The notes beneath the pieces are model-generated. The model did not search any database. It saw only the letters and a program-made list of their open reading frames with translations, and was not told where the DNA came from. Below, piece by piece: positions 5,973 through 51,599 of a DNA stretch of 51,599 nt. The stretch lies in NCBI GenBank assembly GCA_018970725.1, contig JAGWVU010000033.1, forward strand, positions 1 through 51,599, in the 5' to 3' direction. Within the stretch, counting starts at the first letter, position 1. Each line of letters opens with the position of its first letter. Source of the DNA: Verrucomicrobiota bacterium (lineage in GTDB: Bacteria; Verrucomicrobiota; Verrucomicrobiia; Verrucomicrobiales; DEV007). Position numbers and translations under genes: made by a program.

Positions 5973-8900
5973 TCAGGCGGTCATGCTCTCAAGGACATCG
6001 GCATCGGTCTGATCCCGCGGTCCGACCTTCACGTTCAATCCCAAGCTCTGCATTTCCTTGATCAAGACGTTGAATGACTCCGGCGTCCCGGCTTCGAGGT
6101 TGTTGTCGCCCTTGACGATCGCCTCGTAGATCCGGGTCCGGCCCTGCACGTCGTCCGACTTCACCGTCAGCAACTCCTGCAGGGTGTAAGCCGCGCCATA
6201 GGCTTCGAGCGCCCAGACTTCCATCTCCCCGAAACGCTGCCCGCCATACTGGGCCTTGCCCCCGAGGGGTTGCTGCGTGACCAGGGAGTAGGGGCCAACG
6301 GCCCGCGCATGGATCTTGTCTTCCACGAGGTGGCCCAGCTTCAACATGTAGATGATGCCCACCACCACCTGCTGGTGAAAAGCGTCCCCGGTCCGTCCGT
6401 CGTAAAGCGTCGACTTCCCGTTTTCGCCCACCCAGGAGAATCCATCCGCCTCGCGGGCCTGTTTCAGGAAGTTCATCACCTCCTTCTCCGAAATCCCGTC
6501 GAACACCGGGGTCGCCACCTTGAATCCCAGCGCCTTGGCCGCAATCCCCAGGTGGGTCTCCAAAACCTGACCCACGTTCATCCGGCTCGGCACCCCGAGC
6601 GGATTCAGGCAGATGTCGACCGGCGTGCCATCCGAAAGGAAGGGCATGTCCTGCTCGGGAACGATGTTCGCCACCACCCCCTTGTTCCCGTGACGACCGG
6701 CCATTTTGTCCCCGACCGAAAGCTTCCGCTTCTTCGCGACGTAGACCTTGACCTGCTTAATGATCCCGGGATCAACTTCATCCCCCGCCTCCAAGGCGTC
6801 CAAACGGCCTTCCCGTTCTTCGTTGACGTCGGAAAACTTCTGTTCGAACTGCCCGACGATCTCCACGATCTTGACCCGGATCGGGCTGTGCTCGATCTCG
6901 ATCGATTCGTAGGACTCAGCCAGCTTCCGCAGCAACGTCTTGGTGATCTTTTTGTTGGCAGGGATCAGGATCTCCCCGGTGCTTCCGTCGACCACATCGA
7001 GCGGAATCTTCTCCCCGAGCAGGACGTCGGACAACTTCTCGGTCAACTGATCGGTCAACTCCTCGATCTTGCGTTTCCACTCGTCGTCGATCTCGGCCGA
7101 TTGCTTGTCTTTCTCCGCCTTCGAGAGCTTCTGGCGGACCGGGGTGTTGCGCGACGAGACCCGGACGTCCATCACGATCCCTCGGCAACCCGAAGGAACC
7201 CGCAGTGAGGTATCCTTCACGTCCGCCGCCTTCTCCCCGAAAATGGCGCGCAACAAACGCTCCTCGGGAGCCAGTTCGGTTTCGCTCTTCGGCGTGATCT
7301 TCCCGACCAGGATATCCCCGGGCTTCACCTCCGCCCCGATCCGGATGACCCCGTCCGGCCCGAGATGTTTCAGCGCCTCATCGCCCACATTCGGAATGTC
7401 CCGGGTGATTTCCTCCGGCCCCAGCTTGGTGTCCCGGGCCCCGATCTCGAACTCGTCGATGTGGATCGAGGTGTAGATGTCCTCCTTCACCACCCGCTCG
7501 TTGATGGTGATCGCATCCTCGAAATTGTAGCCATTCCAAGGCATGAACGCCACCAGCACGTTCCGTCCCAGCGCAAGCTCCCCGTTCTCGGTATTCGGTC
7601 CGTCCGCGAGGATATCCCCCTCCTTGACGGCATCCCCCCGACGGACGATCGGCCTCTGGTTCAAGCAGGTGCCGGCGTTCGAGCGCATGAACTTCCGCAG
7701 GGGATACACATGAATCCCCTTGTTCGCGTTGGGCTTGACGCATTCGACGTTCGCGAGAAACTCACGGTCCGAGACCGGCAGCTTCCCGTCCTTCGTCACC
7801 ACGATCATTTCCGCGGTAGCCGCCGCCACGATGCCATCCCCTTCGGATACCACCACGGCACGGGAATCCCGGGCCACTTTTTCTTCCATCCCGGTGCCGA
7901 TGTAAGGCGAATCCGAAACCAGAAGCGGCACCCCTTGCCGCTGCATGTTGGAGCCCATCAACGCGCGGTTGGCGTCGTCGTGCTCAAGGAAGGGAATCAA
8001 ACTCGCGGCCACCGAGACCAACTGCTTCGGACTCACGTCCATGTAGTCGGCCGTTTTCGGATCCACGTCCTTGAAATCCCCCTTGTCCCGCACCGTGATC
8101 TTCGGAGCGAGGAAGTTCCCTTTCGCGTCGATCTCGTTGTTCGCCTGCGCGATCATGTGCCGCTCCTCCTCGTCCGCCGTAAGGTAAACGATCTCGGCCT
8201 GAACCACTCCGTTGACGATCCGCCGGTAAGGCGTCTCGATAAATCCGAACTCGTTGATTCCCGCGAAGGTCGACATCGAGTTGATGAGACCAATGTTCGG
8301 ACCTTCCGGCGTCTCGATCGGACAGATCCGGCCGTAGTGCGACGGGTGAACGTCGCGGACTTCGAAACCAGCGCGATCCCGGTTGAGCCCGCCAGGCCCG
8401 AGAGCCGACAGACGCCGCTTGTGCGTCAACTCGGAAAGCGGATTCGTCTGGTCCATGAACTGACTCAGCTGGGAACGCCCGAAGAAATCCCGGACCACCG
8501 CGGACAAAGCTTTCGGATTGATCAGCTTGCCCGGCGTCATCGCCTCGATGTTCACATCGTAGAGCGTCATGCGCTCCTTCACGAGCCGCTCCGTCCGCGC
8601 CAACCCCACCCGGCACTGGTTGCCCAGAAGCTCCCCGACGGCCCGCACCCGGCGGCTGCCCAAGTGATCGATGTCGTCCAGAACGCCTTGGTTGCGCTTC
8701 AGCTTGAGAAGATACTTCAGGGAGGCCACGAAGTCTTCCTTCGTCATGACCCGAACGTCCGTGTCGGTCTTCAGCCCCAGCTTCTGATTGATCTTGTAAC
8801 GACCCACCCGGGTCAGGTCATACTTTTTAGGATCAAAAAAGAGCCGCTTCAACAGTGCCTTGGCGTTCGGGATCGTCGGAGGATCCCCGGGACGGAGGCG

Positions 8901-40905: not shown

Positions 40906-41616
40906 ATGGGAAGAGCCTTCGAATACCGCCGTGCCGCCAAGGAAAAACGCTGGGACAAAATGTCCAAGGTGTTTCCGAAACTGATCCGTTCCATCACCCT
41001 CGCCGTGCGCGAGGCCGGACCTGACCCGGCGACCAATGCGAAACTCCGCATCGCCATTCTCAACGCGAAGGCGGAGAACATGCCCAAGGACAACATCGAC
41101 GGCGCGATCAAGCGAGCCAGCGCCAAGGATGCCGAGGACATCAGTGAAGTCAGCTACGAGGGCAAGGGCCCGCACGGCGTCCTGTTGTTTGTCGACTGCA
41201 CCACGAACAACACGAACCGGACCGTTGCCAACCTGAAAACGATTTTCTCAAAGGGCGGAGGAAGGCTCGTGGAGAGCGGTTCCCTTGAGTTTATGTTCCA
41301 GAGGAAATCCCTCATCGAGTTCGAGGTGCCCTCCGGCCGGAACGTCGATGAGATTGAGCTCGACCTCATCGATCACGGTTTGGAGGAATTGGAGGTGAAC
41401 GAGGGCCGCGCCTACGCCTACGCGGCCTTCGCCGATTACGGAAAGCTCAGCCATGGCATCGAGTCTCTCGGGATCGAGGCCGCCAAATCGAGCATCGTCC
41501 GGGTCCCCACCTCCCCGGTCGAGTTCACGGAAGCCGAACAAGAGGACATCGAGAAACTCATCGATCGCATCGAGGACGACGATGATGTCCAAGCCGTGTT
41601 CACTAACATCGCCTGA
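40906..41616 (+). CDS. YebC/PmpR/TACO1-family protein
   Basis: This 236-residue cytoplasmic protein belongs to the YebC family, proposed as transcriptional regulators (PmpR) and shown in some bacteria and mitochondria (TACO1) to assist translation of difficult stretches. Diagnostic segments are RRAAKEKRWDKMSKVFPKLI, NAKAENMPKDNIDGAIKRAS and the acidic patch SYEGKGPHGVLLFVDCTT. The first residues (MGRAFEYRRA) differ from the common MAGHSKW start, as in a second YebC type. The next gene starts 9 bp after the stop, so yebC and the sigma-regulatory genes are probably co-transcribed. Confidence 0.92.
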   Translation: MGRAFEYRRAAKEKRWDKMSKVFPKLIRSITLAVREAGPDPATNAKLRIAILNAKAENMPKDNIDGAIKRASAKDAEDISEVSYEGKGPHGVLLFVDCTTNNTNRTVANLKTIFSKGGGRLVESGSLEFMFQRKSLIEFEVPSGRNVDEIELDLIDHGLEELEVNEGRAYAYAAFADYGKLSHGIESLGIEAAKSSIVRVPTSPVEFTEAEQEDIEKLIDRIEDDDDVQAVFTNIA

Positions 41617-41625
41617 CCGCCGGCC

Positions 41626-41901
41626 ATGAATCCCGAGGAACTGGACCTTTTGCTTCGCCAGACCGCCCCGGCTTCTTCGTCTCGGCCGGGCCCGGCTGTG
41701 GATTTGGTTTCCTCCGTGATGCGACGCCTCGGGCGCCGGGAACGCTGGCAGGATGTCTGCCTTGTGCTCGGAGGAGCCACCGTGGTCGCCTTCACCCTCG
41801 CCCTCGCGATCGCCTGCCTCGGCAGCCCGGCCAGCGGGTCGCGCCCCGCCCTCCGCCTCTTCCAAGAGCAACCGGCCTCGCACCCCTTCGCCGTTCCGTG
41901 A
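41626..41901 (+). CDS. Small membrane protein, putative CnrY-type anti-sigma factor
   Basis: This 91-residue protein has a cytoplasmic N-terminal arm of about 42 residues (MNPEELDLLLRQTAPASSS and VDLVSSVMRRLGRRERWQD). One transmembrane helix spans about 43-65 (VCLVLGGATVVAFTLALAIA) and a short periplasmic tail follows. Size and topology match CnrY-type anti-sigma factors, which hold an ECF sigma at the membrane through a short N-terminal peptide. Direct sequence similarity is too short to judge. The assignment rests on the next two genes, a CnrX-like sensor and an ECF sigma, in the same order as cnrY-cnrX-cnrH. Its TGA overlaps the GTG start of the sensor gene. Confidence 0.6.
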   Translation: MNPEELDLLLRQTAPASSSRPGPAVDLVSSVMRRLGRRERWQDVCLVLGGATVVAFTLALAIACLGSPASGSRPALRLFQEQPASHPFAVP

Positions 41902-42338
41902 ATGTGGCCCCGCGAACTCTCATTTGGAGTGCGGTCACCATCCTCGTTGCGGTGGCCGCTTCTTGGCGTGTGGTCCGGCAGAGCGGTCCCCTGCCGTCCG
42001 AGTCCAGTTTTCACGACTGGTTGCACGCCAATCTGGCGATGAGCCCTTCCCAGCATCTCGCCCTCAAACCCTATGAGACCAGTTATGAGGCCGAGCGTTC
42101 GCGGCTCCGCCATGAGATCCACGAGGCGGCCGCCCTCCTTGCGAATTCCATCGGTAAGGAGGAGGCGGGGGTCGAGTCCGTTGAGCTGGCCTTGCGGCGG
42201 CTTCAGGAGGCCCAGGGGGAGTTACAACGGGCCACTCTCCGGCATTTCTTCCTGATGAGGGATCATCTCGATCCCACCCAAGCCCAGAAACTGGTCCGGT
42301 GGACCCATGACAGCTTGCTCGATGGATCTTCCAATTGA
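41898..42338 (+). CDS. CnrX-like periplasmic metal sensor
   Basis: This 146-residue membrane-anchored protein has a hydrophobic N-terminus (LIWSAVTILVAVAASW) and an all-helical periplasmic domain. In Cupriavidus CnrX, metal is bound by H42, H46, E63, H119 and M123. Here H39, H43, E60, H116 and M120 occur with identical spacing, in FHDWLH, the KPYETSYEAE segment and LQRATLRHFFLMRD. It should therefore sense nickel, cobalt or a similar divalent metal and relieve the anti-sigma. The start is a GTG overlapping the previous stop (GTGA), and the gene overlaps the sigma gene by 32 bp. Spy/CpxP-type periplasmic proteins are a related alternative, but the exact ligand spacing favours CnrX. Confidence 0.78.
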   Translation: MNVAPRTLIWSAVTILVAVAASWRVVRQSGPLPSESSFHDWLHANLAMSPSQHLALKPYETSYEAERSRLRHEIHEAAALLANSIGKEEAGVESVELALRRLQEAQGELQRATLRHFFLMRDHLDPTQAQKLVRWTHDSLLDGSSN

Positions 42339-42954
42339 CCTTCACACGGCCCATCTCTCCGCTTTTGCGAGGGATGCCGAAATTCCAGCGGCGGAAGTTT
42401 CCTCCTCTACCGGGGAAGACCTCATCCGCTCCGCCCAGGCCGGAAATCCCGAAGCGTTCCGGACCTTGGTCGAATGGCATCAGGGGCTGATTCTTCGTTT
42501 TTGCCTCCACTGGCTGCATGATTCCGAGGACGCCCGGGAAGCGGTCCAGGATACCTTCATCCGAGCTTGGCAAGCCTTGGACCGTTACGAGCATCGGGGA
42601 CTCTTCACCCACTGGCTCTACCGGATCGCCCTCAATGTTTGCCGGGATCGCCAGAAATCCAAGGCCTCCAGGCAGCGCCGCGCCACGAGCCCGCTCGGTC
42701 AGGGGGAATCCCCGTTCGCCTGTCAGCGGCCCACCCCGGATGAAACCTTGGCCCGGTCCGGTGACTTGGAAAAATTACAGCGCGGCATGGATCTCCTCCC
42801 GGAACGTCTCCGCGTCGTCCTCATCCTCTGCGGTCGGGAAGGATTGTCCCAGGAAGAAGCCGGGGCGATCCTGAATTGCTCGGCGCGGGCCGTCGAGGGA
42901 CGTCTCTACCGCGCCCGGAAGGAATTGCTCGCCTGGTGGAACCGCATCGGCTGA
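42307..42954 (+). CDS. ECF RNA polymerase sigma factor
   Basis: This 215-residue sigma factor has region 2 at about residues 38-118 (AGNPEAFRTLVEWHQGLILR, HDSEDAREAVQDTFIRAWQA, HWLYRIALNVCRD). A short variable linker follows, then region 4 at about 155-209 (LLPERLRVVLILCGREGLSQ, EEAGAILNCSARAVEGRLYR). Regions 1.1 and 3 are absent, as in ECF sigmas. It is the CnrH counterpart in the three-gene regulator set. The ATG at 42307, preceded by GGTGG, lies inside the sensor gene; an ATG at 42322 is an alternative. Next in line is the TonB receptor gene after 49 bp, its likely target. Confidence 0.92.
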   Translation: MTACSMDLPIDLHTAHLSAFARDAEIPAAEVSSSTGEDLIRSAQAGNPEAFRTLVEWHQGLILRFCLHWLHDSEDAREAVQDTFIRAWQALDRYEHRGLFTHWLYRIALNVCRDRQKSKASRQRRATSPLGQGESPFACQRPTPDETLARSGDLEKLQRGMDLLPERLRVVLILCGREGLSQEEAGAILNCSARAVEGRLYRARKELLAWWNRIG

Positions 42955-43003
42955 TTTTTTAAAAACTTCATGGGTTGTCGCGGGGCGCTTCGTTAATTCC
43001 GGA

Positions 43004-45031
43004 GTGAACGCCCGATTCTTCCTCCCCCTTTGCTTTCCCCTCCTGCTCGGGGCCCAGGAGGCCTCGCAACTTGAGTCCCTCGTGGTCAAGGGCAAGGCGG
43101 AGAACCTTCTCGGCAAGGCTCAAACCTCTTCCCAAGGCCAGTCGAGCGCGAGGGAACTTCAGGAGCGTCCGTTCGTCCGACGCGGGGAACTGCTCGAAGT
43201 CGTTCCGGGACTGATCGTGACCCAGCACAGCGGAGGGGGGAAGGCGAACCAATACTTCCTCCGCGGGTTCAACCTCGATCACGGCACGGATTTCGGCATC
43301 TTCGTCGATGGCATGCCGGTGAACATGCGGTCCCATGGTCACGGACAGGGCTATGCCGATGTCAACTTCATCATTCCCGAGTTGGTGGAACAACTCGACT
43401 ACGCCAAGGGACCCTACTACGCCGAACTGGGCGATTTCACCACCGCGGGCGCTGCCCGTTTCAACCTATTCCGGGTTCTGCCGCAAGGCTTGGCCAGCCT
43501 CACCATTGGGGAGAACGATTTCTATCGATCGCTCATCGCGGACTCGATCCTCACGGATCAGGGAGCGCTCACCCTTGCCGTGGAGTATGGTTATTTTGAC
43601 GGTCCGTGGGCCCGGCCGGATCAGTTGCAGCGTTGGAACGGACTGGTCCGCTACGTCACGGGGGATGAATTTGATTTCACCTCGGTCACGTTCATGGGGT
43701 ATGACGCCAGCTGGAACGCCACCGATCAGGTTCCCCGACGAGCCATCAAGCGCGGCTTGATCGATCGCTTCGGAAATCTGGATTCCACGGTCGGCGGCAG
43801 CTCGCACCGTTACAGCCTCTCGGTTGATCACCGCAACGAAGACGCCTCCGGCGTGACCACGGCTTCGGCTTACGTCGGCACCTACCACCTCGACCTCTTC
43901 TCCAACTTCACCCTGTTTCTCGACGATCCCGTCCGCGGGGACCAGTTCAACCAATTCGACGACCGCTGGTTTTCCGGGGCCAACGTGGAGCGCAAACAAC
44001 AGGACCTGAGCCTCTTCGACCGGCCCGTGGAACTGGCCTACGGCGCCCAAACCCGTCAGGATCTCATCGACGGTCTGGCCCTGCGCAAGACCAGCCGGCG
44101 GGAGACGCTCTCCACGGTCCGCCAGGATGACGTTTTTGAATCGAGCCTCGGGGCCTACGGACAAGCCGAAATCCGCTGGACGGATTGGATGCGCACCCAG
44201 ACCGGTCTTCGGGGCGATCTTTACCATTTTGATGTGAAGAGCAGTCTTGCCGCCAACTCCGGCACGGCTTGGGACACCATCGTCAGTCCCAAGCTCGGCT
44301 TGGTTCTCGGCCCTTGGAACGAGACCGAGTTTTACCTCAACGGAGGCACCGGTTTCCACAGCAACGATGCCCGGGGCGTCACCACCACCATGGACCCCGC
44401 GAGCGGGGACCGGGTCGATCCGGTAACCCCGTTGGTGCGCACTTACGGGGCCGAAGCCGGGATCCGGTCCCAGCGGATCCAGAATCTCACGAGCACCTTT
44501 TCCCTCTGGTATCTCCAGAGCGATTCCGAACTCGTTTACGTGGGTGACGCCGGCACCAATGAACCGGGAGATGCCAGCGAGCGGTATGGCATCGAGTGGT
44601 CCAACTACTGGAGGCCGGGTGACCTCCTCGCGCTCGACACCGAGTTCTCCTTGAGCGACGCCTACTTCATTCCCACGGGGGAACTGGTCCCGAATTCCGT
44701 TCCGGTGACCTTTTCAGGCGGTGTCACGCTCGGCGGTGCCAGCGGCCCGTTCGGAACCTTGCGGGCCCGCTACTTCTCACCGAGACCTCTGACCCCGGAC
44801 GGGAACTTTGAATCCAAGGATGCCTTCCAGCTCAGCGCCCGCACCGGGTATCGCAAGGGCCAATGGGAAATGGCCCTCGAAGCCCTGAACCTCCTCGACG
44901 CCCGGGACAATGACATCGAATACTTCTACACCTCAAGATTGAACGGGGAACCCGCCGCCGGGGTGGATGATTTTCACGTGCATGCGGTTGAACCCCGCCA
45001 ATTGCGTCTAAGTTTCATCTACAAATGGTGA
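43004..45031 (+). CDS. TonB-dependent outer-membrane receptor
   Basis: This 675-residue receptor has a signal peptide (MNARFFLPLCFPLLLGAQ), a TonB-box-like LESLVVKGKA and a plug domain (about 45-170) with ELLEVVPGLIVTQHSGGGKA and FLRGFNLDHGTDFGIFVDGM. A long beta-barrel follows and ends in an aromatic residue (LSFIYKW). The plug carries a His-rich turn MRSHGHGQGYADVNF (H111, H113) plus H75 and H93, suggesting a metal or metal-chelate ligand, though this receptor family's substrate is not established. The start is GTG; the only GGAG overlaps it, so the initiation signal is weak. Its stop overlaps the next gene's ATG by 7 bp. Confidence 0.88.
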   Translation: MNARFFLPLCFPLLLGAQEASQLESLVVKGKAENLLGKAQTSSQGQSSARELQERPFVRRGELLEVVPGLIVTQHSGGGKANQYFLRGFNLDHGTDFGIFVDGMPVNMRSHGHGQGYADVNFIIPELVEQLDYAKGPYYAELGDFTTAGAARFNLFRVLPQGLASLTIGENDFYRSLIADSILTDQGALTLAVEYGYFDGPWARPDQLQRWNGLVRYVTGDEFDFTSVTFMGYDASWNATDQVPRRAIKRGLIDRFGNLDSTVGGSSHRYSLSVDHRNEDASGVTTASAYVGTYHLDLFSNFTLFLDDPVRGDQFNQFDDRWFSGANVERKQQDLSLFDRPVELAYGAQTRQDLIDGLALRKTSRRETLSTVRQDDVFESSLGAYGQAEIRWTDWMRTQTGLRGDLYHFDVKSSLAANSGTAWDTIVSPKLGLVLGPWNETEFYLNGGTGFHSNDARGVTTTMDPASGDRVDPVTPLVRTYGAEAGIRSQRIQNLTSTFSLWYLQSDSELVYVGDAGTNEPGDASERYGIEWSNYWRPGDLLALDTEFSLSDAYFIPTGELVPNSVPVTFSGGVTLGGASGPFGTLRARYFSPRPLTPDGNFESKDAFQLSARTGYRKGQWEMALEALNLLDARDNDIEYFYTSRLNGEPAAGVDDFHVHAVEPRQLRLSFIYKW

Positions 45032-45909
45032 AACAGCTCTTCCTTGCCCTTTTTCTTCTTGTCGCGGTCCGGCCGGTCTGCGCCAAGCCGGTGGTTCAGG
45101 CGTCCAACTACCCGCTCGCGTATTTTGCCCAACGCATTGCCGGAGAGCGGATCGATGTTCAATTCCTCCCACCGCCCGACGGGGACCCCGCGTTCTGGGA
45201 GCCTTCCGACGCGGACATTGGCAAGCTCCAGTCTGCGGACAGGATCCTGCTGAACGGGGCCACCTATGAGAAGTGGCTCGCCCACGTGTCGTTGCCCGAC
45301 TCGCTGCTCTGGGATACCTCGGAAGCCTTCGCCCCGCGGTTCTTCACCATCAAGGACACCACCACCCACAGCCACGGCAAGGAAGGGGCGCATTCCCATG
45401 CCGGAACCGCGTTCACCACCTGGATCGATTTCTCGCAAGCCCGTCTGCAGGCGGAAAGCGTCCTCCTCGGCCTGGTGCGCCTTCTGCCCGATGCCCGGAA
45501 AGACCTCGAAGCCCGGGCGGCCACCCTCACCACCGATCTCGATGAACTCGACCGCGAGATGCTCTCCCTGGCCAGGGCGATCGGTGACCAACCCTTGGTG
45601 GCCTCCCACCCCGTCTACCATTACCTCGCCCGGCGTTACGGATTGAAGATCGAGTCCGTCCTCTGGGAACCGGAGACCGTCCCGGATGAGGCCGCTCTGC
45701 AGACGCTCCGGGGCGTCCTCACCAAGCACCCCGCCAAATGGATGATCTGGGAGGGAACTCCAGCCCCTGAATCGGTCGCCAAGCTCCGGACGCTCGGTCT
45801 CGGCAGCCTCGTCTTCGCCCCCTGCGGCAACCGCCCGGAAACCGGAGATTGGTTGACCGTGATGCGTCAAAACCTCGGGAACCTCAGGGCCATCCCGGGG
45901 CCGCGTTAG
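45025..45909 (+). CDS. ZnuA-like (cluster A-1) metal-binding protein, degenerate ligands
   Basis: This 294-residue exported protein has a signal (MVKQLFLALFLLVAVRPVCA) and the fold pattern of zinc/manganese ABC binding proteins: VVQASNYPLAYFAQRIAGE, a His-rich loop THSHGKEGAHSH (H115, H117, H123, H125), VASHPVYHYLARRYGL (H195) and WEPETVPDEAALQTL. The usual DPHxxEP site reads DPAFWEP (residues 54-60), so its histidine is lost. The PHxW-type site near residues 128-133 reads AFTTWID. The C-terminal Asp site reads VFAPCGN. Only H195 of the four usual ligands remains. No ABC ATPase or permease gene is nearby. It is tightly coupled to the TonB receptor gene, so it may accept or buffer the imported ligand. 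Confidence 0.82.
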   Translation: MVKQLFLALFLLVAVRPVCAKPVVQASNYPLAYFAQRIAGERIDVQFLPPPDGDPAFWEPSDADIGKLQSADRILLNGATYEKWLAHVSLPDSLLWDTSEAFAPRFFTIKDTTTHSHGKEGAHSHAGTAFTTWIDFSQARLQAESVLLGLVRLLPDARKDLEARAATLTTDLDELDREMLSLARAIGDQPLVASHPVYHYLARRYGLKIESVLWEPETVPDEAALQTLRGVLTKHPAKWMIWEGTPAPESVAKLRTLGLGSLVFAPCGNRPETGDWLTVMRQNLGNLRAIPGPR

Positions 45910-45939: not shown

Positions 45940-47364
45940 TCAAGGCTCCCAGCCCCCTCCCAACGCTTTCACCAGAATCACCACGGCAGCAAACCGCTGG
46001 CCTTGGATCCGGGTCAAATCCTGCTCGGAGCGGAGGTGCGAACGCAGCGCGTCCAGCACTTCGAAATAGGAAACCAACCCGGCATCGTATCGTTTCTGTG
46101 CGAGATCGACCGTGCGTCCCGCCGCCTCCACCGTGCGCCGGAGGGCGTCGCTTTGCCGTTCCATGACCTCCAAAGCGCTCAATGCGTCTTCCACCTCGAC
46201 CATCGCTTGCAACACCGTGGCCCGGTATTCCGCCCCGCTCGTCTCCCATCGCGCCTTGGCCGCATCAACCCCCGCCTTGATCCTGCCTCCTTGCAAAACG
46301 GCCCAATCGATGTTCGGACCAATGGCCCATACCTGACTGGCCGCGGCACCAAGAAGCGAAACCGCGCTGCTTTGTCCGCCCCCGCTGGCCCCCAGACTGA
46401 CCCGGGGAAACCACGCGGCCCGCGCCACCCCGATTTCCTGATTGGCCGCCTCCACCCGCATCGCGGCGGCCACGATGTCCGGTCGACGTTGGAGCAACTC
46501 ACCGGGGAGGCTCTCCGGGATCGCAGGCGGGGTTTCCCGCGGCTCCAGGGGCATCGGCCCCAAAACAGACTCACCGGGCCCCCTTCCCTGCAATCGCTCC
46601 AAGGCGTGCGACAACTCGGCGCGGCGCCGCTCCAGGCCGATCCTTTCGGCCTCCGTCGAGGCCAGTTCCGTTTCCGCCTGCGCCACCTCGAGCCGGGCCG
46701 CCTCCCCGCCCTTGAAACGGGCCCGGGCCAAATCGACCGCCCGTTGGCGCAGGGCCACCGTCCGGCCCAGCAAGGCGATTTCCGCGTCCTGAGCCCGCAA
46801 GGCATAATAGGAAAGAGCCAACTCACTCTGGAGGGAGAGCAAGAGCGCGAGCCGATCCCCTTCCCTCGCCCCGGCCCGCAGCCCGGTGGCTCTGGCCTGA
46901 TGACGAACCCGCCCCCAAAGATCGGCCTCGTAAGCGAAATCCAAGGTCAACCGGATCGATGTCCGCGTGCGGCCACCGGCAAAATTATTGGCCAGAGTTC
47001 CCGAGGTGCGGGTGCGGTTGACATCCCCGGTGCCGCCCAGAAAGGGAAAGAGCTGGGCTTGGTCCACGCGAGTCAAGGCCCGGGCCTCGATCACCCGTCG
47101 GTAAGCTGCTTCTAGGGTTGGATTGGACGCTTCGACGGCTTCCAGATAGCCCTCCAACCGTTCATCGGCAAAAACATGCCACCAAGCTCCCCGCCGCGCC
47201 GCATCCGCCGCTGAGAACGGTCTCCACGGTCCCTCGGTCGCGTAATGCCCGGGCAATTCGACCGCCGGGGGAGCGCCGGGCGGCACCAGGCTGCATCCCG
47301 GCGTGAACCAGGAAAGCAGCGCGCCGGCAAGGACGAGGTGAAATTTCGGGACGGCAAGATTCAT
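45940..47364 (-). CDS. Outer membrane factor lipoprotein (TolC/NodT family)
   Basis: This 474-residue outer-membrane channel of an RND pump has a signal with a possible lipid-attachment cysteine C24 (SWFTPGCSLVPPG), the usual RGAWWHVFADERLEGYLEAV opening and two TolC-type repeats. Recognisable segments are SELALSYYALRAQDAEIALL, ESLPGELLQRRPDIVAAAMR and KRYDAGLVSYFEVLDALRSH. The ATG at 47364 was chosen because the signal peptide starts there; the open frame upstream reads antisense-like sequence overlapping the permease gene. It lies 32 bp after the permease gene as the last gene of the pump operon, convergent with the binding-protein gene (30 bp). Confidence 0.92.
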   Translation of the reverse strand: MNLAVPKFHLVLAGALLSWFTPGCSLVPPGAPPAVELPGHYATEGPWRPFSAADAARRGAWWHVFADERLEGYLEAVEASNPTLEAAYRRVIEARALTRVDQAQLFPFLGGTGDVNRTRTSGTLANNFAGGRTRTSIRLTLDFAYEADLWGRVRHQARATGLRAGAREGDRLALLLSLQSELALSYYALRAQDAEIALLGRTVALRQRAVDLARARFKGGEAARLEVAQAETELASTEAERIGLERRRAELSHALERLQGRGPGESVLGPMPLEPRETPPAIPESLPGELLQRRPDIVAAAMRVEAANQEIGVARAAWFPRVSLGASGGGQSSAVSLLGAAASQVWAIGPNIDWAVLQGGRIKAGVDAAKARWETSGAEYRATVLQAMVEVEDALSALEVMERQSDALRRTVEAAGRTVDLAQKRYDAGLVSYFEVLDALRSHLRSEQDLTRIQGQRFAAVVILVKALGGGWEP

Positions 47365-47396
47365 CGGAAAGCGGACGCGTGCAGGACACCAGCGGA

Positions 47397-50300
47397 TCAT
47401 CGCCCTTCTTCCGACAAAAGAGCCTGCAACCTCCGGCCGGCCGCCTCCGGACTGGCGGTTCCCCTGGCGATCAACGCGTAAGCTGCAGGCACGAGAAAGA
47501 GAGTCACCAAGGTGGCCAGGGAGACGCCGTAGACAATCACCACCCCCACGACCATCCGGGTCTCCGCTCCGGCTCCGTGACTCAACATCAGGGGCAGGGC
47601 ACCCACCACCGTCGCCAGAGCAGTCATCACGATCGGACGCAGGCGTTGGGTCGAAGCCTCCAGAACCGCCTCGGCGAACGGAACGCCCTCGTCCCGGAGC
47701 TGGTTGATGAATTCCACGATCAGGATGCCGTTCTTGGCCGCCAACCCGATCAACATGATCAGGCCGATCTGGCTGTAGATGCTCTGGTTCAGCCCCATGA
47801 CCTGAAGACCGAGCAGCGCCCCGGCCACAGCCACCGGGACGGAAAGCATGATGGTCAGGGGATGAATGAAGCTCTCGAACTGCGCCGCCAGGACCAGAAA
47901 GGCCACCAGCAACGCCAGCCCGAAGACCAGATTCCCACTGCTCGAACTGTCCTTCAGCTTGAGCGCATTCCCCTTGTAACCAATCACCGCGCTTGGGGGC
48001 AACTCCGTCCGGATCAAGTCCTCGAGCCATTCAATCGCCTCCCCGAGGCTGTATCCCTGAGCGAGATCGCAATCGAACGTGATCGAACGCATCCGATTGT
48101 AGCGGTTCAAGGTTCCGGAATCGGCGAACTCCCTGATCGTGACCAAGTTGGCCAAGGGAACGAGTTGCCCCGTCCGCTCGCTCCTCACCTGAACGTTGTT
48201 GAGATCGAACGGACTTTGTTTGTCAGCGTAGGCCCCTTCCACCAGCACGTCGTATTCCTCTCCCTCGTGAACGAACGTGGTCACCCGGCGACTTCCCAAC
48301 AAAGTCTCCAAGGTCCGCCCGATCGCGGCACTTGAGACCCCGAGGTCGGCCGCACGATCCCGGTCGATGCTGACACTGACTTGCGGCTTGGTATCCCGGT
48401 AATCACAATCCAACCCGATGAGCTTCGGATTTGCCTTGGCCTTCTCCAGGATCACATCCCGCCACACCGCCAATTCCTCGAAAGTGGGCCCTCCCACCAC
48501 CAACTCGAGACTTTTGTTCAGTCCCCGGGTCAGGCCCTGGCGCATGATGACCGCCGTCTTCACCCCGGGCAGATCCGCCACCCGGGCACGGACTTCATCG
48601 AGAATGACGAATCCGTTGCGGCGCTTCCCAAAGTCCGCCAGAGTCACCACGCCGATCCCCTCGTTGTAAACATCCCCGCCGAAAAAGGACCGCGGCGCGC
48701 GCACGAGGACCCGGGTGGCTTCCCCCGTCTCTTCGTTGAGATACATGATCCGGTCCTCCAACTGGTCCAGCGCCCGCATTGTGTAATTGAACGTCGACCC
48801 CGGCGGACCGGTCGCCGTCACAAAAAAAGAACCGCGATCCTCACGGGGAGTGAACTCGGTGGGAACGGCACGCAAGAGCCACACACACCAGGCGATCATC
48901 CCGCCCGCCAACGGCACCGCCAGCCACGGAGCGCGCAGCAGGAGCCCCAGGAGAAACCGGTAAAAGCCGCGCAACGCTTCAAACCCCCGGTCCAGCCCCT
49001 TCGTGATCCAGGACGCCCGCCCGTGATCCGCCAAGACCTTGGAAGCCAACATCGGGGACAACGTCAGCGCGACAAAGCCCGAAAACCCCACGGAGACCGC
49101 CAGCGTGATCGCAAACTCGGTGAAGAGCCGCCCCGTCTCACCCGGCATGAACGTGATCGGCACAAAGACCGCCAGCAACACCAAGGTCGTCGCCACCACC
49201 GCGAACCCCACCTGCCGGGTGCCGAGAAAGGCCGCCACCATGGCGTTCTCACCTTTTTCGATCCGCCGGTGAATGTTCTCGAGGACGACGATCGCGTCAT
49301 CGACGACCAACCCGATGGCCAGCACCAAGGCGAGCATGGTCAACGTGTTGATGGAGAAGCCCAGGGCGTCGAGCGCCAAAAAAGTGGCCATCACCGAAAC
49401 CGGGACCGCGACCATCGGGACAAGCACGGCCCGCAGACTTCCCAGAAAGAGATAGATGATGACAATCACCAGAACCACCGCCAGCCCGAGGGTGCGCCAT
49501 ACCTCCCGGAGAGATTCCTCGATGAACACGGACAGGTCGTAACTCTGCTCCAGCTTCATGCCCGGCGGCAGCGTGAGCCGGACCCGACCGGCCTCTTCCC
49601 GGGTCGCCCGGGCGACATCGAGCGTATTCGACTGGGACTGCCGGACAATCCCGATCGAGATCATCTGCACGCGGTTGCCTCGGAAGGCATTGCGGGGCTC
49701 CGCCGCTCCCAGTTCCACCCGGGCCACCTCCCCGAGGCGCACCTGATACCCGTTGGCCCCTCGCGCCACGACCAACCTCTCGAAGTCCGCCGGGGTCCGA
49801 TACTCCCGGGTGAGCCGGACCGTGAACTGCCGGTCCAGGGATTGCACCGTGCCTGCCGGAGGATCGACGTTCTCCCGGCGCAACGCTTCCTCCACATCAG
49901 CGACCGTCAACTGCCGCGCCGCCAACGCCTCCCGGTCCACCCAAACCCGCAGCGCGTAGCGGCTCCCTCCCGATACCCGCACCCGGCCCACTCCCGGCAA
50001 TCGGGAAAAACGATCCACCAGATACCGCTCCGCGTAGTCCGTCAGGGCAATCGGATCCAACCGGTCACTTGTCAGATTGAGATACATCAGAATTTCGGCC
50101 CCGGCCTCGGTCTTGCCCACCTGGGGGGCCTCCACTTCCTCCGGCAGATTGGCGATGACCGGCGCGATCGCTTCGCGGATGTCGTTCGCCGCCGCGTCCA
50201 AATCCCGTTCCAAGGCAAATTCCACCGTGATCGTCGATTGCCCGTCGATGCTCTCCGAGGAGATGTTCTTGATCGCCTCGACCTGATTGATCCGGTCCTC

Positions 50301-50501
50301 CAACGGCTGGGTGATCCGCCTCTCCACCACCGAAGCCGAGGCCCCCCGATACTGGGTCTCCACCGTCACCACCGGCGGCTCGATGTCCGGATATTCACGG
50401 ACCTGAAGCCGCGTGAAACTGACGATCCCGAAAGCGATCAGGAGCAGATTCAACACGGTGGCAAGCACCGGACGCCGGATGGAAGTGTCGGAAAGCCACA
50501 T
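47397..50501 (-). CDS. RND efflux permease, HAE1 type
   Basis: This 1034-residue inner-membrane proton-driven transporter starts MWLSDTSIRRPVLATVLNLL. It has two periplasmic porter regions and 12 predicted membrane spans. The fourth membrane helix reads LALVLAIGLVVDDAIVVLEN with the paired aspartates of multidrug (HAE1) pumps; heavy-metal (HME) pumps usually carry a different motif there. Near the end the helix around MLIGLAAKNGILIVEFINQL has the conserved lysine/asparagine of AcrB-type pumps. It is therefore probably a drug or hydrophobic-compound exporter, despite lying beside metal-sensing genes. The adaptor gene precedes it by 12 bp and the outer membrane factor follows. Confidence 0.94.
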   Translation of the reverse strand: MWLSDTSIRRPVLATVLNLLLIAFGIVSFTRLQVREYPDIEPPVVTVETQYRGASASVVERRITQPLEDRINQVEAIKNISSESIDGQSTITVEFALERDLDAAANDIREAIAPVIANLPEEVEAPQVGKTEAGAEILMYLNLTSDRLDPIALTDYAERYLVDRFSRLPGVGRVRVSGGSRYALRVWVDREALAARQLTVADVEEALRRENVDPPAGTVQSLDRQFTVRLTREYRTPADFERLVVARGANGYQVRLGEVARVELGAAEPRNAFRGNRVQMISIGIVRQSQSNTLDVARATREEAGRVRLTLPPGMKLEQSYDLSVFIEESLREVWRTLGLAVVLVIVIIYLFLGSLRAVLVPMVAVPVSVMATFLALDALGFSINTLTMLALVLAIGLVVDDAIVVLENIHRRIEKGENAMVAAFLGTRQVGFAVVATTLVLLAVFVPITFMPGETGRLFTEFAITLAVSVGFSGFVALTLSPMLASKVLADHGRASWITKGLDRGFEALRGFYRFLLGLLLRAPWLAVPLAGGMIAWCVWLLRAVPTEFTPREDRGSFFVTATGPPGSTFNYTMRALDQLEDRIMYLNEETGEATRVLVRAPRSFFGGDVYNEGIGVVTLADFGKRRNGFVILDEVRARVADLPGVKTAVIMRQGLTRGLNKSLELVVGGPTFEELAVWRDVILEKAKANPKLIGLDCDYRDTKPQVSVSIDRDRAADLGVSSAAIGRTLETLLGSRRVTTFVHEGEEYDVLVEGAYADKQSPFDLNNVQVRSERTGQLVPLANLVTIREFADSGTLNRYNRMRSITFDCDLAQGYSLGEAIEWLEDLIRTELPPSAVIGYKGNALKLKDSSSSGNLVFGLALLVAFLVLAAQFESFIHPLTIMLSVPVAVAGALLGLQVMGLNQSIYSQIGLIMLIGLAAKNGILIVEFINQLRDEGVPFAEAVLEASTQRLRPIVMTALATVVGALPLMLSHGAGAETRMVVGVVIVYGVSLATLVTLFLVPAAYALIARGTASPEAAGRRLQALLSEEGR

Positions 50502-50513
50502 GCCGGACTAGGT

Positions 50514-51599
50514 TCAGGGCTTGGATCGCTCCGGGTTCAAGGGCGCGACCGGCCCCTCGTATTCTCCCGCGAGCCGGATGGCGGAACCGTCGAGCAACCC
50601 CACCAACCCATCCGTGACCACCCGGGTCCCCTTCCCAAGTCCCCGGAGAACCTCGACGGCCCCGGGCACGCGCCGCCCCGTCTCGATCTCGATGAGCTTG
50701 GCCACCGGCGCCGCAGGAGTCCCGTCCACGATGAACACGTGGGTCCGCGCCCCCATCGGAACCAAGGCCCGCTCGGGAATCGAGAGCGAATGCCGCGGTT
50801 CCAATTGCAACTCCACCATCGTCAGCATCCCGGGCCGCAGAACCAACTCCGGGTTCGGCACCTCCGCCCGGGCTTCCACGGAGCGCGTCACCGGATCCAG
50901 CCTCGTGTCGAGATGCTTGACCCGTCCCTTGAACTCCCGGTGCTTCAGAGATTCCGTGGTCGCGATGATCTCCGTCCCCGCGCGGACCGACCCGAGCATC
51001 GTCTCCGGAATCCCGAAATCGATCTTCACCACATCGATCTTGTCGATCGTTGTGATGACCGTCCCCGGAGAAACGAGGGCCCCGACACTGATCCGCCGCA
51101 GCCCGAGCCAACCATCAAATGGCGCCACGACCCTCCGGTCCGCCAGCTTTGCCTCGGCCTCGCGAATTTTCTGTTTCGCGATGTCCGCCAAGGTGCGCCT
51201 TTCGGCCAACCGGGCTTCCGCCGCCGCCCCCTCCGCCACCAAACCGCCGAGGCGACCGATCTCCCGTTCCTCCTCGGCCAGCACCGATTGGGCGGAAGCC
51301 AAAAGCGCCGCTTCCTCCGCATTGCCCAGTTGCGCCAGAATCTGGCCTTTCCGCACCTGCTGACCGTCCTCGAAGAAAAGACCGGTCACGGTTTCGGTCA
51401 CGTTGGAACTGATGTCACTGCTTTCGTCCGCGTTGACCGTTCCGATGACACGCAAGGGAAGGGCGAAGTCCCCGTGCCCAACCGTGGCCGTCTTCACCGG
51501 AGCGGGCGGACGCACCGTCTTCATAGGAGCGGCTTCCTCTTCCGGTCCGCACGCCGGCATCCAGGCCCCCAGCAAGGGCAGCAAAAGACGAAATCTGAA
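50514..51599 (-). CDS. RND pump membrane fusion (adaptor) protein, partial
   Basis: 361 residues are visible; the reading frame stays open to the window edge, so the true start probably lies just outside. The N-terminus reads FRFRLLLPLLGAWMPACGPE, a lipoprotein-type signal with its cysteine in MPAC. After it come a lipoyl/hairpin region (FFEDGQQVRKGQILAQLGNA, then an Ala/Glu-rich hairpin) and DRRVVAPFDGWLGLRRISVG. The beta-barrel (VKIDFGIPETMLGSVRAGTE) and membrane-proximal domains follow. This is the periplasmic adaptor linking the permease to the outer membrane channel. A TTG at 51584 could serve as a start but would cut the signal short. It is the first gene of the pump operon. Confidence 0.9.
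   Translation of the reverse strand, partial: FRFRLLLPLLGAWMPACGPEEEAAPMKTVRPPAPVKTATVGHGDFALPLRVIGTVNADESSDISSNVTETVTGLFFEDGQQVRKGQILAQLGNAEEAALLASAQSVLAEEEREIGRLGGLVAEGAAAEARLAERRTLADIAKQKIREAEAKLADRRVVAPFDGWLGLRRISVGALVSPGTVITTIDKIDVVKIDFGIPETMLGSVRAGTEIIATTESLKHREFKGRVKHLDTRLDPVTRSVEARAEVPNPELVLRPGMLTMVELQLEPRHSLSIPERALVPMGARTHVFIVDGTPAAPVAKLIEIETGRRVPGAVEVLRGLGKGTRVVTDGLVGLLDGSAIRLAGEYEGPVAPLNPERSKP

Follow-up and report, generated by a model that had tools for sequence, protein, structure and literature searches.

A 51,599-nucleotide stretch of DNA from a Verrucomicrobiota bacterium (GenBank assembly GCA_018970725.1, contig JAGWVU010000033.1, positions 1 to 51,599 of the forward strand; hereafter the window) encodes a transmembrane sigma module of the CnrYXH type directly upstream of the gene for a TonB-dependent outer-membrane receptor. 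We conclude that a metal-uptake receptor has probably replaced a metal-efflux pump as the output of this module, and that metal probably induces the response. In the proposed mechanism, a CnrX-like sensor would read periplasmic nickel or cobalt, as its retained ligand set suggests. Metal binding would, by analogy with CnrYXH, loosen a small membrane anti-sigma factor and free a CnrH-like extracytoplasmic function (ECF) sigma factor, which would start transcription at an RTGGGNTC-N12-TCGTT promoter just upstream of the receptor gene. The receptor, here along with a ZnuA-like protein encoded behind it, would then be made when metal is present. We infer that the motif is the promoter used by this sigma factor, and likewise which metal is involved and in which direction the system responds.

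A CnrYXH-type module upstream of a TonB receptor

The module consists of three overlapping genes on the + strand: a 91-amino-acid protein in the position of CnrY (41626..41901), a CnrX-type periplasmic metal sensor (41898..42338) and a CnrH-like ECF sigma factor (42307..42954). The sensor matches the Metal_resist family (PF13801, 2.4e-10), and its best matches in the PDB are NccX (2.2e-10), then CnrX. The sigma factor carries Sigma70_r2 and r4_2 domains and has CnrH as its best PDB match (1.1e-21). The residues H, H, E, H and M (HHEHM) are kept at the five CnrX ligand positions in 25 of 27 aligned sensors, including that of the window; the exceptions are a receptor-linked sensor with K at Met123 (locus L067) and a paralogue not beside the receptor (L096). 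We take the first four positions to be H42, H46, E63 and H119 of CnrX, with the numbering of Met123 following the literature. According to a passage of a review, Co(II) and Ni(II) recruit Met123 of CnrX, and this residue is needed for signalling (PMC7689651).

The 91-amino-acid protein matched no Pfam family. Its profile found matches in 24 of the 27 loci having a sensor profile match, among 61 loci surveyed. Its position, its one hydrophobic stretch and this recurrence in relatives suggest a putative membrane anti-sigma factor.

The receptor gene follows at 43004..45031 (+), and its product is a predicted nickel/cobalt importer and the predicted target of the sigma factor. With a yebC/TACO1 family gene in front of the module (40906..41616, +) and the gene for an orphan ZnuA-like periplasmic binding protein, probably the second gene of the receptor unit, behind the receptor (45025..45909, +), the run comprises six open reading frames (ORFs) on the + strand. 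A preliminary description, made from the letters of the window without database searches, had reported these six genes with spacings of 9 bp, a 4-bp overlap, a 32-bp overlap, 49 bp and a 7-bp overlap, and all of this was reproduced. Its family assignments also held, as Pfam supports YebC (PF01709/PF20772), a Metal_resist sensor, an ECF sigma factor, a TonB plug (PF07715) and a ZnuA-like protein (PF01297).

The module accompanies the receptor across the order

To place the module in its wider context, we surveyed 141 genomes of the order, which we take to be Verrucomicrobiales. These were drawn from a larger group and are mostly drafts, some of them incomplete; gene calls outside the window were made with a rough codon score. 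Receptor matches were found in 77 of the 141 genomes, 75 of them beyond remnant or weak; the remnant or weak matches of genomes G074 and G126 were removed before counting, and both genomes were tallied as receptor-negative. The Metal_resist search, whose first look scored at most 28 candidates per genome, returned 107 matches in 62 genomes. Of these, 31 lie within 3 kb of a receptor gene, 30 upstream on the same strand and 1 divergent, and a further 8 are also upstream and on the same strand, at a distance of 5-12 kb. Because 30 Metal_resist matches in the order besides the window's own are found within 3 kb of the same receptor, a chance arrangement can be excluded.

Fetched sensors divide into a CnrX type (HHEHM, once HHEHK) and other groups, and Metal_resist proteins near ECF genes that have LxHHT/V or no ligand letters at the five positions were excluded from CnrX-type counts. 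A CnrX-type module was found in 49 of the 75 genomes with a receptor versus 1 of the 66 without one, a count for which not every one of the 107 Metal_resist matches was fetched, the unclassified ones belonging to genomes that had been credited with a module on other grounds. For five of the 49, the first assignment was by position, and HHEHM was later confirmed in all five; the single unclassified Metal_resist match of G029, which was counted as module-free, is not of the CnrX type. In the window's own family, the module is present in all 18 receptor genomes. A resistance-nodulation-division (RND) permease was found in none of the 25 fetched stretches of the order in which module and receptor lie close together, a set that does not include the window.

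Two other groups of ECF-associated Metal_resist-like proteins were seen. One family in the order reads LxHHT at the five positions and has lost most CnrX ligands (L202, L204, L206, L207, L231, L238, L241, L244 and L247-L251). The third type has the reversed gene order, an ECF gene followed by an ORF of ~280-300 amino acids with a Metal_resist-like stretch and zero CnrX ligands (L232, L233, L239, L240, L242, L243, L246 and L346). Separately, the DNA between module and receptor in two loci of genus g20 was considered as a possible site of metal genes; instead, its other strand carries genes for a SulP-carbonic anhydrase and a histidine kinase in L069 and for DabA in L073.

A promoter-like motif before the receptor tracks the module

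A two-block word search upstream of the receptor found one pair in 11 of 25 loci versus a maximum of 4 in shuffled sequences; before the anti-sigma gene, the same search gave 5 versus a shuffle maximum of 4. The motif sites read RTGGGNTC, 12 bases, then TCGTTTCA. In the window, the predicted ECF-type promoter (TTCATGGGTTG-N10-CTTCGTTAAT, 42967..42997, +) sits inside the 49-bp gap between the sigma factor and receptor genes and has the best score on both strands of the 51.6-kb window, a score that is not independent because the 12 seed loci include the window.

We then counted a core, [AG]TGGG-N15/16-[TC]CGT[TC], in the 300 bp that precede the receptor gene. Where the genome has a CnrX-type module, it was present at 44 of 51 loci, versus 1 of 26 in other genomes (P = 6.6e-13), and at 32 of 39 versus 1 of 26 after removal of the 12 seed loci (P = 1.2e-10); shuffled upstream regions contained it in 22 of 3,850 cases. 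Among 16 loci fetched after the core had been defined, 10 of 11 with a module carried it versus 0 of 5 without. Within genus g20 alone, the motif was found at 23 of 23 loci with the module and 0 of 7 without (P = 4.9e-7), which lessens the concern that the association reflects deep ancestry only. Two genomes initially classed as module-free despite high-scoring motifs, G043 and G062, were found to carry a CnrX-type module elsewhere in the genome.

The core is also present at 11 of the 12 loci where module and receptor lie apart, and the motif occurs at L053, whose receptor gene is divergent. What the motif follows is thus not gene order but the receptor unit and whether a module is present. 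In the sequences compared, motif and receptor go with the module.

The receptor and its likely metal

A Pfam scan of the receptor returned the plug domain only, from residue 46, and no N-terminal signalling domain. In an AlphaFold model (mean predicted local distance difference test score 80.9), the fold matches PqqU in a Foldseek search (template modelling score 0.78), and FoxA, FecA and OprC are also close. The plug and the predicted fold identify it as a TonB-dependent receptor.

Relatives were collected by a pattern scan of named genomes, and we analysed the best 80 of 574 confirmed matches, which come mostly from other orders and phyla and include some of the same order. Gene clusters near these best 80 of 574, checked against Pfam on cluster representatives only, included NikR (14 loci), HupE_UreJ_2 (13 loci) and NicO (4 loci), and the sigma module lies next to the receptor in few of the 80 loci (L108, L112 and L117). 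L112, from the cultured strain Haloferula sp. BvORR071, carries the motif as well as the module. Within the order, the receptor gene is followed by HupE/UreJ genes in L081, L093 and L096, ExbB or ExbD genes in L044 and L095, a CobW gene in L068, and ZnuA and ATP-binding cassette (ABC) genes in L052. The NikR, NicO and HupE/UreJ genes beside receptor relatives, together with the ligands of the sensor, suggest that nickel or cobalt is likelier than zinc as the metal of the receptor. The window's genome has neither a NikR nor a urease match.

yebC and the ZnuA-like gene lie outside the core

The preliminary description had read the six-gene run as a rewired metal-responsive uptake or periplasmic buffering system, with no particular metal named. 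The neighbourhood survey upholds its link between a CnrX-type sigma module and a TonB receptor in place of an efflux pump, which is conserved across the order, and the ECF-dependent promoter that it had called for has a candidate in the motif that precedes the receptor and tracks the module across genomes. Its inclusion of yebC in the unit did not survive, and the ZnuA-like gene is not a core member. Linkage of yebC was found at 2 of the 61 loci, the window and L040, both from the same genus, and we therefore discarded yebC as a member of the unit; in this genus it is perhaps on one transcript with the sigma module.

A ZnuA-family gene lies near the receptor at 4 of the 61 loci, one being the canonical ZnuA with ABC genes of L052. 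The ZnuA-like protein of the window has matches at E ≤ 1e-5, many of which are weak, in 121 of the 141 genomes; among the matches listed, G000, G027 and G109 are the only genomes in which the gene adjoins that of the receptor. Copies away from the receptor lack the motif (0 of 10, 8 of which are in module-bearing genomes). The ZnuA-like protein was rejected as a core component on these grounds. Where it is adjacent, its gene stays in the predicted receptor unit, to which it was recruited in a few genomes, and in G109 the motif precedes it.

All 11 aligned members, plus those of L040 and L047, have the first two canonical His ligands replaced, and members keep a conserved HSHG-HSH loop. The subfamily (DPAFW, HSHG-HSH loop, SHPVY and DPCGN; window 45025-45909 and L263-L272) is widespread in the order. 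No ABC genes adjoin the gene in the window, and none were seen beside the few other members checked in short stretches. The two replaced His ligands and the lack of adjacent ABC genes set the protein apart from ZnuA cluster A-I. Other contigs of the window's genome hold three further ZnuA-family matches and four matches to ABC-3 permeases. The ZnuA-like protein may pass on or buffer metal, so that periplasmic buffering is possible for this protein only, and docking to a distant permease is also possible.

Beyond this gene, a multidrug-type RND efflux operon on the - strand (45940-51497), with an outer-membrane factor, an HAE-type permease and a third ORF, converges on it. The RND permease, which is encoded on the other strand, scored 373 bits against a CusA/CzcA cut-off of 701 and by this measure is not a metal pump of that type.

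Expression of the module and a possible second target

Before the anti-sigma gene, 25 of 27 upstream regions scored below the 99% shuffle level for the motif; those above it were from L053, with its divergent receptor, and L096, the paralogue. This absence of the motif argues against autoregulation, unlike in cnr, and we rejected it. The module may be carried on a transcript that extends across yebC; a sigma-70-like site upstream of this gene and a terminator-like hairpin where the sigma factor gene ends were found, neither above chance counts.

A stricter pattern, TGGGNTSN{12,13}TCGTT, has nine matches in the window's genome versus two for a reversed control. As placed by the rough gene caller, one match precedes the receptor, one precedes a HupE_UreJ_2 gene, one is intergenic with no gene start behind it and six are inside genes. 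The HupE_UreJ_2 gene encodes 392 amino acids and lies ~160 bp behind its site, and a sister genome has this site too. The HupE/UreJ-type permease gene, elsewhere in the genome, is thus a suggestive candidate for a second regulon target in this genus.

The receptor-linked module has a single branch

In a tree of joined sensor and sigma factor sequences, with support from the Shimodaira-Hasegawa-like approximate likelihood ratio test (SH-aLRT) and without bootstrapping, 39 modules of the order form one branch (SH-aLRT 100), 26 of them near a receptor and 13 elsewhere. Outside this branch fall 14 modules from other orders of the phylum and two from this order, L200 and L211. Sensor-profile matches were found in 22 of 337 genomes of the phylum sample. 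Of 17 out-of-order places fetched, 14 have HHEHM and three do not, and an RND permease lies in the fetched stretch at 10 of the 17 and at 8 of the 14. Four of these permeases were checked, and all belong to the CusA/CzcA family above the curated cut-off, as does that of L200. L211, the sole CnrX-type module in a genome without the receptor, lies near a CopB gene and outside the receptor-linked clade. The tree and the RND neighbourhoods fit a single switch of target, with the receptor taking the place of efflux.

The genome that contains L200 (G095) holds both a receptor-linked module and this second, deeper-branching CnrX-type module, which has genes for the CusA/CzcA RND permease, NicO and a multicopper oxidase nearby.

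Weighing the alternatives

Several observations weigh against a metal-induced module that drives receptor expression. The putative anti-sigma factor has no sequence match to CnrY in the PDB, its best weak match being RsiW (E = 0.01), and the motif is absent before the module itself. In the window, 6 bp separate the end of the predicted -10 block from the GTG start codon of the receptor gene, which implies a nearly leaderless transcript. The site before the HupE_UreJ_2 gene overlaps, in its first block, the start of a divergent gene, and it is missing before relatives of that gene in four other module-bearing genomes, as it also is in nine genomes without the module. The genomes of L081, L093 and L096, in which HupE/UreJ genes follow the receptor, carry no CnrX-type module. 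NikR occurs in 43 of the 141 genomes and does not exclude the module, so the two were dropped as mutually exclusive regulators in the order; urease (35 of 141) does not track the module and was discarded as an explanation of the system. Related genomes do not count as independent observations, a problem that, of our counts, only the within-genus one eases.

The motif core is also missing before the receptor at 7 of the 51 loci in module-bearing genomes. Three of these are all the loci of genus g21 (L064, L065 and L224), where the module lies directly before the receptor; in the module tree, L064 and L065 share a very long branch, so promoter and sigma factor may have diverged in step. A fourth belongs to a second receptor copy in G117, and two more have near-matches (L044 and L055, scoring 20.8 and 17.6 versus a 99% shuffle level of 14.2). 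At the last, L047 in G109, the ZnuA-like gene stands between sigma factor and receptor, and a site (6417-6448, score 27.3) precedes the ZnuA-like gene, as if the promoter marked the head of the receptor unit. Counting this site, post hoc, gives 45 of 51.

These misses would suit a module that controls efflux or envelope stress, with receptor adjacency reflecting inherited gene order and the motif belonging to another regulator, and CnrX-like modules outside the order are indeed often near RND permeases (10 of 17 loci). We consider this very improbable: the motif persists where the module lies apart (11 of 12 loci) and at the divergent L053, it is absent from 25 of 26 loci without the module, and no RND permease accompanies the 25 linked loci. 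A unit for zinc uptake or for buffering zinc in the periplasm, with the ZnuA-like protein at its centre, is improbable too. It would account for the PF01297 match and His-rich loop, the canonical ZnuA and ABC genes behind the receptor in L052, the CobW gene after it in L068 and the G109 motif before the ZnuA-like gene. Against it, two of the four canonical ligands are replaced in the 11 aligned members as well as in those of L040 and L047, among the matches listed only three genomes have the gene next to that of the receptor, and elsewhere the window's genome has three further ZnuA matches and four to ABC-3 permeases.

The same wiring could instead operate with the opposite sign: the module would be silent with a metal-bound (or zinc-bound) sensor and fire when nickel or cobalt is scarce, making the receptor a starvation-induced importer. 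Importers are usually induced by scarcity, and NikR, a metal-bound repressor, is encoded beside receptor relatives in other bacteria. The review cited above also describes, in one passage, Zn(II)-CnrX as non-functional (PMC7689651). Set against this, the Met residue that the same source describes as needed for CnrX signalling by cobalt and nickel is kept in 25 of 27 sensors, which suggests that a metal-ON mode is under selection, and we regard scarcity induction as rather unlikely. Metal-induced control of the receptor is the reading we prefer.

Relation to known systems

In the parts of two papers that deal with it, CnrYXH is a system of efflux control (PMC7689651, PMC9045368). The window-type module shares with CnrYXH/NccYXH of Cupriavidus metallidurans and relatives the order anti-sigma (here putative), sensor, sigma, the CnrX ligand set and a CnrH-like sigma factor. 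It differs in being linked, by gene neighbourhood, to a TonB receptor and not to an RND pump, and in having a predicted promoter before the receptor unit with none found before the module.

In FecIRA-type signalling, as here, an ECF sigma factor gene is followed by a TonB receptor gene probably under its control, and in the favoured, metal-induced reading uptake is likewise induced by substrate. Here, however, no signalling domain was found in the receptor, the putative anti-sigma factor has no FecR-type Pfam match and sensing would be done by a separate periplasmic metal sensor.

Relatives of the window receptor, among the best 80 of 574, occur in Dechloromonas and Bradyrhizobium, presumably, from the locus names, the sources of Daro_3944 and Bll6948. 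Both Dechloromonas loci have NikR-cluster genes near the relative, and one of them also has a NicO gene there. A passage of PMC11247825 names Daro_3944 and Bll6948 as nickel TonB-dependent transporters together with FecA3, FrpB4, CntO, Rgel01002199 and NikH. The window system differs from these in its predicted regulation by a CnrYXH-type module, in a genome without a NikR match.

It is an even call whether one Verrucomicrobiales clade switched a nickel/cobalt CnrYXH-type module from an efflux pump to an importer, with feed-forward uptake, signalling through a free-standing sensor and loss of autoregulation. The analysis yields a concrete promoter, a target list and a within-genus pattern of presence and absence as a testing ground. 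If the switch is real, a regulator would be named for nickel-type TonB receptors in Verrucomicrobiota, and a metal sensor could keep its ligands while the physiological meaning of its signal reverses.

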